This document shows, one piece after another, positions 4,279-37,587 of a stretch of 52,371 bases of DNA. The notes beneath the pieces were generated by a model. That model saw nothing but the letters and a program-made list of their open reading frames with translations. It did no database searches and was not told where the DNA came from. Within the stretch, counting starts at the first letter, position 1. Every line of letters begins with the position of its first letter. A program made the position numbers and the translations under genes. The stretch spans positions 1 to 52,371 of the IMG/VR virus record IMGVR_UViG_3300027749_000147; one strand, 5' to 3'. Source of the DNA: a virus.

Positions 4279-4738
4279 CTTCAGCCTCCGATGTAAAACT
4301 TCCTGGATTAACAACAATACCCAGTGCTAAAGCAGAAGAGAAACTGCCGACCAGGGCTCCAAGAGTTATGGTTGTGTATATTTCTAATAAGTCTTCATGG
4401 GACTTCTCTAAAGATTCTTCATCTACAAGACCCTTTTTAAGAAGAACATCATTCATTGTCTTTACCAAAATCATAGCGTTAATGTCTGACATAACATTTA
4501 AGAATGATAGATAAGGAATTACCTGTTCAAGTCTGTCTGCAGACTCACTAAGCTCCATGTCTTCACCCTCTTGACTAATAGGGTTTAAACCAAATGCTTC
4601 TGCAAACTCATTAGTGTTGCTTACACCTGTATCATAACAGAACCATCGGAATAATGTACTAAGCGGTAATACTTCTGTATCAACCACAAATTTATCTGAT
4701 TCGTTAGGTTCTTTTTTATCCCAGAACTTCCAACTCAC
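4268..4738 (-). CDS. hypothetical protein downstream of DNA polymerase (156 aa)
   Basis: This is an acidic helical protein. It uses a GTG start that overlaps the polymerase stop as GTGA, so it is likely co-translated with the polymerase. The N-terminus is charged (WKFWDKKEPNESDKF). The C-terminal third holds a Gly/Ala/Leu-rich stretch (TLGALVGSFSSALALGIVV) that could be a buried helix or a weak membrane segment. I do not recognise the family. Confidence 0.65.
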   Translation of the reverse strand: MSWKFWDKKEPNESDKFVVDTEVLPLSTLFRWFCYDTGVSNTNEFAEAFGLNPISQEGEDMELSESADRLEQVIPYLSFLNVMSDINAMILVKTMNDVLLKKGLVDEESLEKSHEDLLEIYTTITLGALVGSFSSALALGIVVNPGSFTSEAEDEF

Positions 4739-29836: not shown

Positions 29837-31336
29837 TTACCTCGTTGCCATACTTACCATTGCATTTGTAATTGCACTACCAAAAGAATATGGGTCAGTT
29901 CCTGGAGGTGCTGATACATTTACAGTAATTGCTCCAGTAAATACTGGTGTTGAGGTAACTCCTCCAGTAGGAACAGAGTTATCAGAAAGACCTGGCATAC
30001 TATCAATATGTGCACCAGTAGCAAGAAGAGCGGCACCGATTGCTGCACCACCAGCAATTTTTCCTAGTATGCCAGCTTTCTTTGAGCCACCTAATTTAGC
30101 AATAAGTTTACTCATGCCAGAAGATTTAGTCATACCTGTAAAATTACCATTTGCGTTAATTAAGGTGTCAGTTAATAAGTTACCAGCACCACCACGGATA
30201 CCGCCAAATACTTCAAGACCAGTAAGTGCAGCTTGACCACCTTTAATAGCAGTACCAAGTCCAGGGGTGCTTTGTGCTCTACCAAGATAGTCATATAGTG
30301 CTGGTATTATCTCCCTATTCATAGCATTAGTTCCAGCATTGGTAGCGTTGGTGTACGACTGTATTAGACTCAACTCTTTAGGAAAAGTTCCAACAAGGTT
30401 TGTTAAAGTATCTGTCATTCCACCAGTCTTCATAAGACCTGCTTTAGTACCAGAGGTTGAAAGGTTAGCGCCACCACTATTAGCCATTTGTACAAGACCA
30501 GCTATTACTGTTGCTCTTAAGTTTTCGTCTTGACCAAAGTACTGGTCAAGCATACTATCCAAAGCATTACCAGACATAGCAGATACAGCAATCATTTGGG
30601 GTGTAACTTTTCCAGCAGCGTTTTTAAGTAAGGTATAGATTTGTTTAATAATATCTGGCAAATCATTCATGTTACCACCAGCACCACGTACGTTAACGCC
30701 AATCATTCTAAGTGAGTTAACTTTTCGGGCTTGGTTAAGACTAGCCATAACACCCATACCACCAGTAATACCAAGACCTGGTGATAAGTTAGATGCTAAC
30801 GCAGCGCCGCCCATAATTCCACCAAAGCTAGAGTTAGGACCAAAGTTGCTAAGACCTGGCATTAGACCCATACCAGCGCCGTAGTTCATTGCTTGAACAG
30901 AATCAAACGCACTAGTAGGAGAACCTAATGCGCTTACGCCTCTTTGTGACCTATAGGAGTTAAGTAAATAATTATGACCAGAGATACCAGACTGACCATA
31001 GAACATCTGGCGAGACCCAAGCATCTCAACATTCATTGCCTCTTCAGCAGTAGGCAATAACCCCATAGCGGCAACTGTTGCTTGACCTGTAGTTTTTAAA
31101 AGACCTTTAGCAAATATCCCTCTTGTCTTACGTACAGTAGGGTCTGTGTAATCTGGAGACGACCCCGACATCATTGAACTAATAGGACCACCACTACCAA
31201 CTCCAGGAGCAGGAGTAGTAACAGGTGAATTTCCAGAACCTGGACTACCAGCACTGTTATTAAGCCTACCTAAGGCTGCGGTAAGCGCATTAACCTTAGC
31301 TAAGATAGAGTCTAAAATACCACTTGGGTCAGCCAT
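29837..31336 (-). CDS. tape-measure protein candidate
   Basis: This 499-residue Gly/Ala/Ser/Met-rich protein follows the tail chaperone and its frameshift extension, the position of the tape-measure gene. It has a short N-terminal helix (LDSILAKVNALTAALGRLN), long glycine-rich stretches, and a hydrophobic helix near 430-445 (KIAGGAAIGAALLATGA). The ruler rule would give a tail of about 75 nm. It lacks the long heptad pattern of most tape measures, so another internal tail protein is possible. Confidence 0.5.
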   Translation of the reverse strand: MADPSGILDSILAKVNALTAALGRLNNSAGSPGSGNSPVTTPAPGVGSGGPISSMMSGSSPDYTDPTVRKTRGIFAKGLLKTTGQATVAAMGLLPTAEEAMNVEMLGSRQMFYGQSGISGHNYLLNSYRSQRGVSALGSPTSAFDSVQAMNYGAGMGLMPGLSNFGPNSSFGGIMGGAALASNLSPGLGITGGMGVMASLNQARKVNSLRMIGVNVRGAGGNMNDLPDIIKQIYTLLKNAAGKVTPQMIAVSAMSGNALDSMLDQYFGQDENLRATVIAGLVQMANSGGANLSTSGTKAGLMKTGGMTDTLTNLVGTFPKELSLIQSYTNATNAGTNAMNREIIPALYDYLGRAQSTPGLGTAIKGGQAALTGLEVFGGIRGGAGNLLTDTLINANGNFTGMTKSSGMSKLIAKLGGSKKAGILGKIAGGAAIGAALLATGAHIDSMPGLSDNSVPTGGVTSTPVFTGAITVNVSAPPGTDPYSFGSAITNAMVSMATR

Positions 31337-31449
31337 TATAGGTTCCTTGTAGCCCTTTCAATCCAATTAGTTCTTTCTCTATGCGAGAGTAAGCGTATGT
31401 CGCTCAGAGACCAGTTAAATATTCGAGTTAGTACTTCGTAGTGGTCCAT
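31336..31449 (-). CDS. tail chaperone extension (37-aa ORF; probably made by +1 frameshift)
   Basis: The ORF from the ATG at 31449 reads MDHYEVLTRIFNWSLSDIRL and ends with SHRERTNWIERATRNL, the helical type of sequence found at the C-terminus of phage tail-assembly chaperones. Its frame stays open upstream of the ATG through FSNEDYVNL to the stop of the chaperone gene at 31472. It could therefore be made as a fusion by a +1 shift at TTTTAG, or independently. No ribosome site is seen before the ATG. Its stop overlaps the tape-measure start as TAATG. Confidence 0.7.
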   Translation of the reverse strand: MDHYEVLTRIFNWSLSDIRLLSHRERTNWIERATRNL

Positions 31450-31471
31450 TAAATTTACATAGTCTTCGTTA

Positions 31472-31477
31472 CTAAAA
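31472..31477 (-). other. candidate +1 ribosomal frameshift site (UUU UAG)
   Basis: The chaperone ends CGT TTT TAG. A Phe-tRNA on UUU can re-pair with the next UUU one base forward while the stop codon waits, and reading then continues AGT AAC GAA into the extension. The +1 frame has its own TAA only about 24 bases upstream, so the shift must happen inside this short window. Confidence 0.55.
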
Positions 31478-32266
31478 ACGAAATAAGTCAGCCAGACTTA
31501 GTGGAATAAACGTATCTTTTCCACATGCCTTGCAAGCCTTCAGCACCTCCCCGAGGCGTGGACCAGGGGCTTTGGTGTACAACTCTGTAATAAGAGTTTC
31601 ACGGTCAGCTATCCCTAATTCTAAAGCGGTTGTTCTACCCATAGATATAGAACCGTCAACAGAAGCAATGCACCCAGCCAGAGCAATTGTAATAAGCTCA
31701 GCAGCCGTTTTATTTTCCGTCTGTAAAAGTTTCTTTTGTGTAATACCGTTTGGAAGATTAAGAACAACCTCACCAGCCTTTACCTTTACGGAAAAAGTTC
31801 TGTCAGCAACTGGGTTATCTAGTTCTGATATTGGAATATCTTTTTCAATATCAATATCCCAGATATCACCAGTACCGCAGTTCTGACAAATAGATGGTTG
31901 TTTAATAATGTTACCGAATGTTACTCGTCTAATTCCCAGTAAAATTGCATCTCTATCACCAGACAGTAAGGAATCAAAGTCAGAGACCGTTACGGGCTCA
32001 TCCCCAATACTTACTAGACCTCTTGATAGCGCCGTCTGTAGTACCCCATATATTGAACTAGCTTTTGAGATAGCTTCTTCATCAGCACCTGTAAGTTCTT
32101 TAACTTCAGCGTACTTAGATAGAATACCGTTATCTCCCATAAAGCCACCTGGTAGGTATACTTCATTGCTAAGGGGCAATACAGTATCTACATCTTTAAC
32201 AGTTTCATTGGAATCTAAAGACTCCACTAATCTGTTTACTGCATCTGGGTCGGTTATTTCAGCCAT
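31472..32266 (-). CDS. tail/baseplate hub assembly chaperone (gp26/gp51-like)
   Basis: This 264-residue protein has an acidic N-terminus, a middle all-helical region and two CxxC pairs (CQNCG near residue 126 and CKACG near the end) that form a zinc ribbon, as in T4 gp26-like baseplate hub chaperones. The strands between (DIDIEKDIPISELDNPV) are typical of this family. It is encoded after the tube gene and before the tape measure, the usual place of the tail chaperone. See the +1 frameshift candidate at its stop codon. Confidence 0.72.
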   Translation of the reverse strand: MAEITDPDAVNRLVESLDSNETVKDVDTVLPLSNEVYLPGGFMGDNGILSKYAEVKELTGADEEAISKASSIYGVLQTALSRGLVSIGDEPVTVSDFDSLLSGDRDAILLGIRRVTFGNIIKQPSICQNCGTGDIWDIDIEKDIPISELDNPVADRTFSVKVKAGEVVLNLPNGITQKKLLQTENKTAAELITIALAGCIASVDGSISMGRTTALELGIADRETLITELYTKAPGPRLGEVLKACKACGKDTFIPLSLADLFRF

Positions 32267-32291: not shown

Positions 32292-32918
32292 TTAGAATTG
32301 ATTTCCTGGGTTGTAGTTAGGGTCTTTTGCTTTTCCGTCTTCCTTAACGAACAGAACTGATAGACCTTCATGTGTTAGCGTAATACTTTCAACAAAAAGA
32401 CCGTTCTGAGTTGCGTCTAGGTCGGTGTACCCTATAGATGTTATAAACGCGTTCTTAAGTAGGAACGCCATTTTAGGAGTATTGGTAGTTGCGTCCGAGT
32501 TAGGGTGGTCCATAACCATAATCTTTACATCGCAACGGAACTGATTTGCCACGTTTGTTGTACCAAGAGTATTAACATTTAGACCCTCACCAGCAGATGC
32601 AGCAAAGATTCCGCGCATCCAAGTGATAGCTTGGTCGTTTCCAAACAACGCTCCTCTTGTAAGAGTTACGTCATTAAATCTTGTCATGCCTGGAACTTTG
32701 TGTGCAGTGGTGTTGTATCCACCTTCACGGTAAGCGATTGGGTCGTTAATAATACCTAAACCAGTAATAGATGTAAACCCGCCAGTAAATCCACCAGCAG
32801 TATTTGTTGTAATTCTAGTATCAAATGGTTTAGCCTGAATGAATTCAACTTTAAACCGAAACTGGCGTAACGGGTCAGAAAGAATACTTCCTCTGTCATC
32901 AATTGTGTTAATTGCCAT
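32292..32918 (-). CDS. tail tube protein (gp19-like)
   Basis: This forms the inner tube of the contractile tail. DPLRQFRFKVEF and TSITGLGIINDPIAYREGG, then HKVPGMTRFNDVTLTRG, are diagnostic of the T4 gp19 family. The C-terminal strands (FVESITLTHEGLSVLF) complete the fold. It is located directly downstream of the sheath gene and has an AGGAG site. Confidence 0.93.
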   Translation of the reverse strand: MAINTIDDRGSILSDPLRQFRFKVEFIQAKPFDTRITTNTAGGFTGGFTSITGLGIINDPIAYREGGYNTTAHKVPGMTRFNDVTLTRGALFGNDQAITWMRGIFAASAGEGLNVNTLGTTNVANQFRCDVKIMVMDHPNSDATTNTPKMAFLLKNAFITSIGYTDLDATQNGLFVESITLTHEGLSVLFVKEDGKAKDPNYNPGNQF

Positions 32919-32932
32919 TATTTATTATCTCC

Positions 32933-35182
32933 TTAAATAGACGCGGTTACAGTCGAGCTTCCATCAAGCTGACCAATTCGAATGATTACAAACTCTGCTG
33001 GCTTTTGTACTGCAATACCAACTTCAATATGAAGTTCACCCGCATTAATTGAACCTGTAGTGTTGATAGTATTATCGCACTTTACATAAAACGCTTGTGC
33101 TGAGGTGCTTCCAGAAAGACCACCAGCGCGCCAGAAGTCTGTAAGGAATCTATTAACTACGCTGCTAACAGTGTTCCAAAGGTTCTGGTCGTTAGGCTCA
33201 AAGATAGCAAACTGAGTTAAACTACGAAGTGAAGAACCTACATAGTTAATTGTTCTACGTACAGGTACGTAACGAAGAGTGAAGTCGCTACTTAATGTAC
33301 GAGCACCCATTACACAAATGCCAGAACCTGGAATAAAACGAATAATATTCAGATTAGCACTGTACGAGCTAATCTTTGTAAAATCATCGTTGCTTAATGG
33401 GATAACATTGACAGCAGACTTAAGTCTTGCGTTAACACCAGCAGGAGCTTTAAACACTCCTCGTCTAGAGTCTGTGTCAGTGTATAGAGCAGCAACTGCT
33501 CCACACGGTGCTACAGATACAGTCTTTCCAGTTGTAGATGATGGGTCTGCAATGATGATGTTCGGGTAGTACGCAGCCGCGTAGTTAACATCTCCAGTGT
33601 AAGAAGAGATACCAACATCTGTAGTACTACTAAGTACATCAGCCAGAGTAAGTGAGGCTTCAGCATCAATTAATACAAAGGAATCACCACGAGTACTTGA
33701 GTAAGCAATAAGCTGGTTAATATCAGAAGAGTATGAGTTATTTGCCCAGTTAAGAATAAGTGGGGTTATAACCGTATCAAATCTAGAAATTAAACTGGTG
33801 TTAGTTCTAGCAGTAGGTCCTTCAGAACCAGCTGTAGTACCTCCACCAGATTGAATAAGAGAGCTAGTCTGTGTTCCTAGGCGTACTGCAACAGGAGTAT
33901 TTGTAAACCCGTTAGAGTTCCAAGAGAAAGCGCCATTTGCTCCCTTAACAGAATCTGAACCAGTGGTGTTCTTCCAAGTACCTGTGAACTGTGGAAGTCT
34001 AAAGATACCAGTACCAGTGGAACCACCATCAACAACATCAATCCAAGATGAGTTGATTTGACCTAAGAAGTATCGACTATTTCCTGGGTCCATACTTAAC
34101 TGTAGGAATCTTTCTACAATATTTGCCGCTTTTAAGTTAGTAGCAGTAGTTGTATTTGAGTAATAGACAGTTAGGTCAAAGTAACCTGGAGTACTATTTG
34201 GAGTTGTACTAATCCAAATACCATTACCCCAAGCACCGTGGCTCTTAGCAGTTACTACGATAGCCTGACCTAAACCATTTAGACCTCCGCCAGTAACAGT
34301 TACTGGTGATGCTGCAGTGTATGTTGTTGTGCTAGTTGAAACTGCTGATGCAGGAGAGTAGTACAAAGATAAAGTTTTCTTATCAGACGATACAGATGAT
34401 ACTACCCAAGTATTACCATTTAAATTAGTGTAGTTAGTATCAGTAATACCAGAAAGGCTAACAGTAGTTCCAGCGTAGTGGTTAGTAAACGCCGCTGTAG
34501 TTGCTGCAATAGTTACTACTTTGTTTCCAAAGTTAGAAGTGTAAGCGTCAAAAGCAATACTTCCAGTAAGGGCTGTAGATAGGTTATTATCTCTTATGGT
34601 AGTCTTAGCTTTTACAGCATCTGGGTTAACATCACGAAGAATGTATGCTTGACCACCACCATTATCAAAGAAAGTTTTAATACCATACTTCAAGTCAGTA
34701 TTATTTGAAGCCGTAATTGATGTTACGGTACCAGCGGTAATAGGTGCTTGGTTAACTACAAAATTTGTAGAGTCTGTAATTGCTGTAACAACTGTTGAAG
34801 ATGTAGTTGATAATGCCGCACCAGATGCCCCAACAAGTGACAGAACTGAACCTACCTGAAGACCCACAGTGCTAGCAACAGTAATAGTTGTGCTTGATGT
34901 AGATAGGCTAATTGTAGATGAGCCTGTTGTAGGTAGAAGTGTAATTGGTGGTATACCAGTCCAAGTATTAATGTTGGTACCAAAGCTAAAGTTATTGATA
35001 AAGTCAGACCAACTGCTTACTAGCGTAGGTACAGCAACAACGTTATTGTTCAGCGTGGTTGTTGGTCCCCTATCCGCATAACCAATAAACGCAGCGGTTG
35101 AAGGTGTAGCAGTATTAGCTACTGGTATTGAGGGTGCCAACGACTCTTCGATGTACACGCCAGGCTTATTGTAGTTAGCCAT
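32933..35182 (-). CDS. contractile tail sheath protein
   Basis: The N-terminus NKPGVYIEESLAPSIPVANT and TAAFIGYADRGP are sheath hallmarks. The C-terminus has YVGSSLRSLTQFAIFEPNDQ and a final EFVIIRIGQL strand. At 749 residues it is longer than most sheaths. The extra length includes a small beta motif near residues 88-150 (VGLQVGSVLSLVGASGAA) and other Ser/Thr-rich insertions, likely surface decorations. The start has AAGGAG upstream. Confidence 0.95.
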   Translation of the reverse strand: MANYNKPGVYIEESLAPSIPVANTATPSTAAFIGYADRGPTTTLNNNVVAVPTLVSSWSDFINNFSFGTNINTWTGIPPITLLPTTGSSTISLSTSSTTITVASTVGLQVGSVLSLVGASGAALSTTSSTVVTAITDSTNFVVNQAPITAGTVTSITASNNTDLKYGIKTFFDNGGGQAYILRDVNPDAVKAKTTIRDNNLSTALTGSIAFDAYTSNFGNKVVTIAATTAAFTNHYAGTTVSLSGITDTNYTNLNGNTWVVSSVSSDKKTLSLYYSPASAVSTSTTTYTAASPVTVTGGGLNGLGQAIVVTAKSHGAWGNGIWISTTPNSTPGYFDLTVYYSNTTTATNLKAANIVERFLQLSMDPGNSRYFLGQINSSWIDVVDGGSTGTGIFRLPQFTGTWKNTTGSDSVKGANGAFSWNSNGFTNTPVAVRLGTQTSSLIQSGGGTTAGSEGPTARTNTSLISRFDTVITPLILNWANNSYSSDINQLIAYSSTRGDSFVLIDAEASLTLADVLSSTTDVGISSYTGDVNYAAAYYPNIIIADPSSTTGKTVSVAPCGAVAALYTDTDSRRGVFKAPAGVNARLKSAVNVIPLSNDDFTKISSYSANLNIIRFIPGSGICVMGARTLSSDFTLRYVPVRRTINYVGSSLRSLTQFAIFEPNDQNLWNTVSSVVNRFLTDFWRAGGLSGSTSAQAFYVKCDNTINTTGSINAGELHIEVGIAVQKPAEFVIIRIGQLDGSSTVTASI

Positions 35183-36426: not shown

Positions 36427-36756
36427 TTACTTTTTATATGTTGTAATACCACTTGTGTCTACAGGAGGCACTAAGTATGAGTAGAGGATTACAACGCTAT
36501 TGCTAATAGTAGAGCCACAGAAACCATAAATGGTGTCCCCAGCGTTTAACCAAAGTTGTAATTGACCACTTGCGGCAATGCCAATGCCGCCATTAGTGGT
36601 TCCAAGACCATCTAGAGTGTCATCTCCAACAGCAATTGTTGACCCACTTCTATTCTGGATAGTTACATAGCATGGGCTAGCACCAGCAGGTACTGTAAAC
36701 AACAAAGTCTTAGTGTTTGCAGTAATTGTAGGAACTACAATATGGTCAAGAGCCAT
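36427..36756 (-). CDS. small beta-rich virion protein (109 aa)
   Basis: It is a beta sandwich-like protein (TKTLLFTVPAGASPCYVTIQ, NRSGSTIAVGDDTLDG, then WLNAGDTIYGFCG). This type of sequence is common in small capsid or fibre decoration proteins. It is the last gene before the terminator at 36389-36412. The start overlaps the preceding stop as TAATG. Confidence 0.6.
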   Translation of the reverse strand: MALDHIVVPTITANTKTLLFTVPAGASPCYVTIQNRSGSTIAVGDDTLDGLGTTNGGIGIAASGQLQLWLNAGDTIYGFCGSTISNSVVILYSYLVPPVDTSGITTYKK

Positions 36757-37013
36757 TACTTCTTACCTTTAACCTTCTTAGCCAAGGCAGCGTCCTTCTT
36801 AGCATCAGCAGCTCTAGACATAGGCTTCTTTTCCATCTTCTTGTCTTCTTTAGCAAACTTAGCCTTCTGAAGAGGTGACATACCTTTTGTTGCTTTAGCA
36901 TCTTGCTTAGCGTCAGCCTTCTTATCGCACGCTCCTGAGTGAGACTTACTGCACTTACCGCACTTGCTTGTTGGCTTGCAGGCACATTTTGCCTTGCCAC
37001 ATTTCTTACACAT
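36756..37013 (-). CDS. Cys-rich/Lys-rich small basic protein (85 aa)
   Basis: The first 32 residues hold eight Cys in pairs (CKKCGKAKCACKP, CGKCSKSHSGAC), likely zinc knuckles. The rest is Lys/Ala-rich and disordered (DKKMEKKPMSRAADAKKDAA). The start at 37013 has AGGAG upstream; the frame is open 13 codons more. In a structural block, such a basic protein could bind packaged DNA or a neck component; unknown. Confidence 0.65.
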   Translation of the reverse strand: MCKKCGKAKCACKPTSKCGKCSKSHSGACDKKADAKQDAKATKGMSPLQKAKFAKEDKKMEKKPMSRAADAKKDAALAKKVKGKK

Positions 37014-37020
37014 ATCTCTC

Positions 37021-37587
37021 CTAGCCAGCGTAATACTGGAATTGTGGGTCATTAACTAGTTCTTCAGGCATAATCTGCTGACAATCAAAAGTGAGCAGTG
37101 TGTACCTCTCATTAATAATACCAGCATAATTGTTCTTAAGCGCGCGATAAACTTGGCTTTTCCAAACAATTCTGTCTCTATTTAGAGGGTCTGGACTCTC
37201 ACTATTTAATGGGTCTAACTTATATAGCATCTCTGGAATAAGGTCAATAATCACATCATGGTCAATAGTTAGGTGCAATCTATCTGAGTTGTAGAAACCT
37301 TGTTGAACCATGTTAGTTGAACCTTGACCAAGCACCGCTCTAATTACAGGAATCTTAACAGGCTCTAACCACTTACGACCACCACTACCATCATAGGTTA
37401 TGGAACCGACATCATAGATAGGGTCAATCTGGGTAGACGTTGCATCAGCATCATTGTGCGGTTTCCAGACATACCAGTCAATAGTAGTACCTACTGGGTT
37501 AGTAAGGTCTTTAGTAATGGCGTCGTGAATCTCATTGGTTTCCCAATCAGAACTAAAACGCCCACCTGGGGTATACGGTCTACTCAT
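37021..37587 (-). CDS. head-tail connector / neck protein candidate (188 aa)
   Basis: The N-terminus SRPYTPGGRFSSDWETNEIH and middle HLTIDHDVIIDLIPEMLYKL with DRIVWKSQVYRA resemble neck or head-closure proteins of contractile-tailed phages. It lies between the Cys-rich microprotein and the basic Cys-rich protein. The family call is based mainly on position. Confidence 0.5.
   Translation of the reverse strand: MSRPYTPGGRFSSDWETNEIHDAITKDLTNPVGTTIDWYVWKPHNDADATSTQIDPIYDVGSITYDGSGGRKWLEPVKIPVIRAVLGQGSTNMVQQGFYNSDRLHLTIDHDVIIDLIPEMLYKLDPLNSESPDPLNRDRIVWKSQVYRALKNNYAGIINERYTLLTFDCQQIMPEELVNDPQFQYYAG

Follow-up and report, generated by a model that had tools for sequence, protein, structure and literature searches.

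Tail Module and Overlapping Reading Frames

The window, i.e., the whole stretch of DNA analyzed here, comprises 52,371 nt (IMG/VR record IMGVR_UViG_3300027749_000147, positions 1 to 52,371) and stems from a virus of bacteria. The host is probably actinobacterial, as judged only from the Streptomyces relatives of the virus. The minus strand carries a contractile-tail module with a sheath-like ORF, the tail tube gene, an ORF of 264 aa, an ORF of 499 aa and baseplate genes (Table 1).

Table 1. Features of the tail module around the junction of the two reading frames.
Feature	Position	Strand	Evidence
Sheath-like ORF	35182..32933	minus	
Tail tube protein gene, upstream neighbor of the 264-aa ORF	32292..32918	minus	phrog_4542, E 4.6e-24
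0-frame ORF, 264 aa, zinc ribbon (two CxxC), T4 gp26-like tail/baseplate assembly chaperone	31472..32266	minus	PF12322 and phrog_150
Synonymously frozen block CGC CTC GGG GAG GTG with SD-like GGGGAGGTG, 75-61 nt 5' of the slip codon	31544..31558	minus	
Candidate upstream RNA hairpin: inner arms 31524-31520 / 31505-31501, outer arms 31529-31527 / 31497-31495	31495..31529	minus	covariation
Proposed +1 slip site UUU_CGU: slip codon TTT 31483-31481, A-site codon CGT 31480-31478	31478..31483	minus	TTT 76/76, CGN 67/67
TTT TAG, last 0-frame codon and stop; possible secondary site, window lineage only	31472..31477	minus	
+1-frame extension, 47 codons (VFSNEDYVNLMDHYEVLTRIFNWSLSDIRLLSHRERTNWIERATRNL) and stop TAA	31336..31479	minus	open in close relatives, pN/pS, no ATG with SD
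499-aa next gene, presumed tape measure protein	29837..31336	minus	position between chaperone and baseplate genes

The 264-aa protein passed the curated cut-off of the PF12322 T4_baseplate family (T4 gp26; 34 bits versus 24.5, E 3.2e-8) and also matched phrog_150 (E 2.8e-6). The search for a solved structural relative of this protein found none. At its 3' end the ORF reads TTA TTT CGT TTT TAG, and its stop codon occupies 31474-31472. A TAA at 31500-31498, 24 nt 5' of the TAG, closes the +1 frame, which is then open up to a second TAA at 31338-31336. This second TAA overlaps the ATG of the 499-aa gene at 31336 (TAATG). A previous sequence-only reading of the locus had described the CGT TTT TAG end, the open +1 frame, the upstream TAA and the TAATG overlap, and all of these were found on the minus strand as described. 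A fusion of the 264-aa ORF with the 47-residue extension would have 309 aa. The remaining frame is closed by stops just past the TAG, and a -1 or -2 reading was, therefore, rejected.

Both overlapping ORFs sit between the tail tube gene and the presumed tape measure gene, as in a G/GT-type arrangement. Profile searches gave no family match for the 499-aa ORF, and its presumed identity as the tape measure protein was taken from its position. The equivalent ORFs of relatives encode about 500 to over 1000 aa and are usually preceded by an SD-like sequence. Elsewhere on the minus strand of the window, at 36746-37052, two ORFs of 84 and 98 aa in different frames cover nearly the same stretch, and the Lys/Cys-rich 98-aa ORF is probably the gene.

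Conservation of the +1 Frame

We gathered relatives of the locus from IMG/VR (the best 80 of at least 566 matches), from phage GenBank records and from GTDB genomes. These relatives are not independent of each other. The extension was present in freshwater phage contigs, in the Streptomyces phages BRock, GiJojo, LuckySocke and pSt2308, and in chromosomal tail modules of Streptomyces, Saccharothrix, Actinomadura, Nonomuraea and Terracoccus. Comparison of the junction in related phages had been proposed as a check, and it bore out the expectation: the +1 frame was open and encoded the same segment in all close relatives, and only a few far ones (L146, L150, probably L134) deviated.

The extension has a length of 46-82 aa in the relatives and follows the consensus DYxxLxxxYExLxxxxGWxLxDIKxLTVRERxxW. 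It is under purifying selection, with a median pN/pS of 0.37 and a value of 0.40 for the window lineage versus its sister. As a control for chance, we determined how often the +1 frame is open for at least 50 codons in the ORFs of the window, and this was the case from just 5.3% of the codons. Since the same +1 ORF with its conserved C-terminus recurs in dozens of independent contigs, in Streptomyces phages and in bacterial chromosomes, the overlap exceeds chance. The +1 ORF also evolves under constraint at the protein level. The extension appears to have a GpE-like C-terminal segment, a resemblance only, as its scores of 14.6-14.8 bits (E 0.0016 for the best member) do not reach the cut-off of 23 bits for PF06528 Phage_P2_GpE.

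Position of the Proposed Slip

The codon alignment for the slip site comprised 78 sequences, 76 of which have kept TTT-C. At the slip position Phe is encoded by TTT in all 76 cases, whereas a second conserved Phe in this gene has TTT in 51 and TTC in 21 sequences. The difference was most obvious in genomes with more than 50% G+C, in which the slip Phe is TTT in 15/15 and the other conserved Phe in only 1/12 sequences (Fisher's exact test, ~1e-6 by hand arithmetic and with relatedness ignored). The Arg following the slip Phe is always CGN (67/67) and never AGR, while other Arg columns hold about 22-33 AGA, i.e., ~1/3 of the sequences. CGN follows the TTT in 67 of the 76 aligned sites and other CNN codons follow in the remainder. 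In the window the motif is present as UUU_CGU, lies in the 0 frame and coincides with the handover to the +1 ORF. A synonymous position that is frozen against the codon bias is predicted by a slip site and not by constraint on the protein, and we therefore place the slip at UUU_C. The alignment thus points to slippage at UUU_CGU in the window, two codons 5' of the UUU_UAG.

The sequence-only reading had proposed a +1 shift that joins two frames of a tail-chaperone-type gene before the presumed tape measure gene. This part stands, while UUU_UAG as the site of the shift and the proposed link to termination do not. Slippage at UUU_UAG would be driven by slow termination, as in prfB, where the +1 frameshift at CUU_UGA needs a stop codon and an SD sequence 3 nt upstream. 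The window and its closest relative indeed have TTT as the last codon before TAG or TAA, and UUU is able to re-pair after a shift by +1. However, TTT directly precedes the stop in only three junctions (twice in the window lineage and in L095). In the other relatives the codon before the stop cannot re-pair (mostly ATA, CTA, GTA or CTC) or the stop (TAA, TAG or TGA) lies further on, by 1-5 codons in several of them (L010, L022 and Streptomyces-type loci), and TTT-C is kept at least two codons 5' of the stop. Moreover, no SD sequence is present within 20 nt before the site in the window. We consider a shift driven by termination improbable as the general explanation. Because both sites are present in the window phage, UUU_UAG could still contribute there. 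Its predicted product, FSNEDYVNLMDHYEVLTR preceded by ...SLADLFR, would also have 309 aa and differ from the UUU_CGU product by one residue (Val or Arg).

Improbable Alternatives to Frameshifting

The window has an ATG at 31449, 25 nt after the TAG, at which ribosomes could reinitiate if the second ORF were a separate gene. GenBank indeed lists the extension of BRock, GiJojo and LuckySocke as a gene of its own. In the far relatives L146, L150 and probably L134 the second ORF is in a frame other than +1, and in the first two of these its own ATG immediately follows the stop. On the other hand, the ATG at 31449 is present in only a handful of relatives, and the conserved segment of the extension begins 5' of it. 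The first 30 codons of the extension lack ATG, GTG and TTG in 37/76 loci, and an ATG with an SD sequence was found in 0/76. A functional ribosome site before the ATG at 31449 had been named beforehand as evidence against frameshifting, and none was found: no Shine-Dalgarno (SD) sequence precedes this ATG. Reinitiation also gives no reason for the frozen TTT-C. We regard it as highly improbable. The second frame behaves as in a G/GT pair, i.e., it lacks a start of its own and is conserved as an extension. A conserved extension without a usable start is most naturally explained by a frameshift that fuses it to the first ORF.

Indels can be present in single contigs derived from metagenomes. However, an artifact of sequencing or assembly, or an indel that recently inactivated the gene, has a negligible probability and is already refuted by the comparative data: the same break is seen in dozens of assemblies that are independent of each other, in isolate phages (BRock, GiJojo, LuckySocke, pSt2308) and in bacterial chromosomes, and the extension is under purifying selection.

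In the GenBank entries for Streptomyces phages of the window type, the extension is either treated as a gene of its own or absent. In L013 (4836-5018), L014 (4827-5024) and L015 (4791-4946) it is a separate hypothetical gene with a non-conserved start. In L016 and L017 it is omitted after the gp26-like ORF.

Candidate Upstream Elements

A rare A-site codon is often proposed as a feature of UUU_CGN sites, although it is not generally accepted as a defining one. Of all Arg codons of the window, CGT is used most (13.8 per 1000), and a rare A-site codon was, therefore, rejected as the driver of the shift. In-frame TTT-CGN occurs seven more times in the window without an obvious role, and avoidance of TTT-CGN was not seen in the window (8 found versus about 10 expected from codon frequencies, by hand arithmetic). 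Since CGT is common and seven other in-frame TTT-CGN are present, something else probably helps the shift. Downstream structure was not apparent: consensus folding of the regions +6..+130 and -30..+60 gave 0.0 kcal/mol, which was no better than for column shuffles.

Upstream of the slip codon we identified two candidate stimulators from the alignments. The first is an RNA hairpin with the consensus GGC..GUGGN / NCCAC..GYC in the freshwater clade. Its 3' side terminates 11-17 nt upstream of the slip codon, at the exit of the mRNA from the ribosome. Standard pairs were found in 94.1% of the pair cells (47 sequences) compared to 35-52% when the arms were slid, and the observed covariation score was reached by 0/500 shuffles. 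The pair -40/-19 is UA, CG or UG in 45/47 sequences and ranked third of 1347 column pairs by corrected mutual information. When tested on a tree, 4/4 independent changes of this pair were compensated, four events being too few for significance. A hairpin that emerges at the mRNA exit may favor a forward slip, which is suggestive only. A further hairpin, predicted by RNAalifold at -85..-67, was dropped because a varying Pro wobble base was uncompensated in alignment A2.

The second candidate is the frozen block, which reads CGC CTN GGG GAG GTG in the freshwater clade (columns 16-30 of alignment A2) and shows the strongest synonymous conservation in the gene, with CGC, GAG and GTG each in 53/53 sequences. 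The strong SD-like GGGGAGGTG within it is too distant from the slip codon for an action of the prfB type. Internal initiation from this block was rejected, as no in-frame start lies at a usable distance.

Variants of the Junction in Distant Relatives

The huge phage L101 has UUU_CUA as a variant of the slip theme, and SP-15 and LIS04 (L104 and L017) have UUUUUU_C or UUUUUU_A at the slip position. In the marine viral contigs L135-L149 the sequence is TTC TTT TGG or TTT TTT TGG, and the open +1 frame leads into a related extension, which would make UUU_UGG another variant of the site. TTT is absent from L012/L107 and L108 despite an open +1 frame, and together with the few relatives that have the second ORF in another frame they count against a shift at UUU_C. 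The gp26-like ORF of L012/L107 and L108 ends with TCC CTT CTA TTC GGT TGA, and these loci may use CUU_C, a prfB-like slip.

Two loci with gp51-like genes showed other arrangements. In L105 (phage C48C1, Kyanoviridae; 4375-4660) the gp26-like ORF ends with GAT TTT TTT TAA, with a T before it. Relative to this ORF, the gp51-like gene annotated as 'baseplate hub assembly catalyst' is in the -1 frame. This is possibly a -1 frameshift in T4-like cyanophages and, if true, would make gp26/gp51 the chaperone pair. In L106 (Rhizobium phage P10VF) the end of the gp26-like CDS and the start of the gp51-like CDS share base 4642 (position ~4642 of the locus), which points to translational coupling rather than frameshifting in that lineage.

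Proposed Mechanism

As UUU_C, the +1 frame and its protein are conserved and an independent start is absent, we favor a +1 shift. Judged from sequence comparison, the contractile-tail assembly chaperone gene very probably undergoes a programmed +1 ribosomal frameshift at UUU_CGU. Most ribosomes would read the gp26-like ORF to the TAG and produce the 264-aa protein. In a minority, with tRNA-Phe on UUU in the P site and CGU in the A site, the tRNA would move by +1 base to the better-pairing UUC. Translation would then continue in the +1 frame with GUU UUU AGU AAC and yield the 309-aa fusion with the GpE-like C-terminal segment and the predicted junction peptide ...SLADLFVFSNEDYVNLMDHYEVLTR. By analogy of gene position, the short and the long form may act like lambda gpG and gpGT, which would include coating of the tape measure, recruitment of the tail tube protein and a set ratio of both forms. 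The movement of the tRNA, the efficiency and the function of the shift are inferred.

A wider and rather doubtful proposal is that UUU_C(GN) generally serves the ribosomes of bacteria, archaea and eukaryotes alike as a +1 slip site that needs no stop codon. In this phage family neither a rare codon nor a downstream structure would drive the slip. The driver would instead be an upstream element that pushes the mRNA register forward, namely a hairpin refolding at the mRNA exit and perhaps also the frozen SD-like block.

Comparison with Known Systems

Frameshifting in tail chaperone genes is a textbook case of recoding, and almost all studied examples shift by -1. This includes lambda G/GT and most other tail chaperone genes, which shift at slippery heptamers (PMC5009743). 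Lambda G/GT and the window share the gene position, with a short and a frameshift-extended form before the tape measure gene, but they differ in the protein families and in the direction of the shift (-1 in lambda, +1 in the window). As to forward shifts, the authors of PRFect state that a general motif is still lacking (PMC10274946).

Among the +1 systems, prfB with CTT_TGA_C and an SD sequence (PMC3711429) also represents a P-site slip in a bacterial gene, but the window family has no conserved stop or nearby SD. The Listeria phages PSA, A118 and A500 shift by +1 on CCC in the major capsid and tail-shaft genes (tsh: CCC_UGA; PMC5009743). These are phage structural genes like that of the window, while only the window gene encodes a chaperone.

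Similar in gene order are the HF1-like haloarchaeal viruses, for which TTT-CGC was proposed without experiment from close relatives, with the chaperone genes in the same place (PMC7230728), and HSTV-2, whose tail assembly chaperone is listed as very likely +1 (PMC5009743). In these viruses as in the window, a +1 shift would join two chaperone ORFs between the tail tube and tape measure genes. They differ by their archaeal hosts and by an N-terminal protein without the CxxC zinc ribbon. Homology of the extension to that of HF2/HSTV-2 was not supported (hhalign probability 2.6%).

The window shares its motif with influenza A and plant amalgaviruses, and the same motif was suggested for the haloarchaeal viruses. 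In PA-X of influenza A the +1 site UCC_UUU_CGU was measured, with an efficiency of ~1% (PMC3498833). Slip codon and A-site codon, the +1 direction and the independence of a stop codon are the same as proposed for the window, whereas PA-X is translated by eukaryotic ribosomes and has UCC as the E-site codon instead of the Leu codons (TTG, TTA, CTG) of the window family. UUU_CGN was also proposed for the plant amalgaviruses, again on eukaryotic ribosomes (PMC5052127). In the open-access literature we found no report of the UUU_CGN motif in bacterial phages.

The window gene would thus represent a bacterial version of a known type of recoding, with a site that appears better supported than the haloviral precedent. 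A control within the gene itself allowed the +1 site to be assigned to a codon, both in diverse phages and in actinobacterial chromosomes rich in G+C. The standing question of why UUU_CGN shifts, although CGN is not always rare, becomes testable in bacterial reporters.
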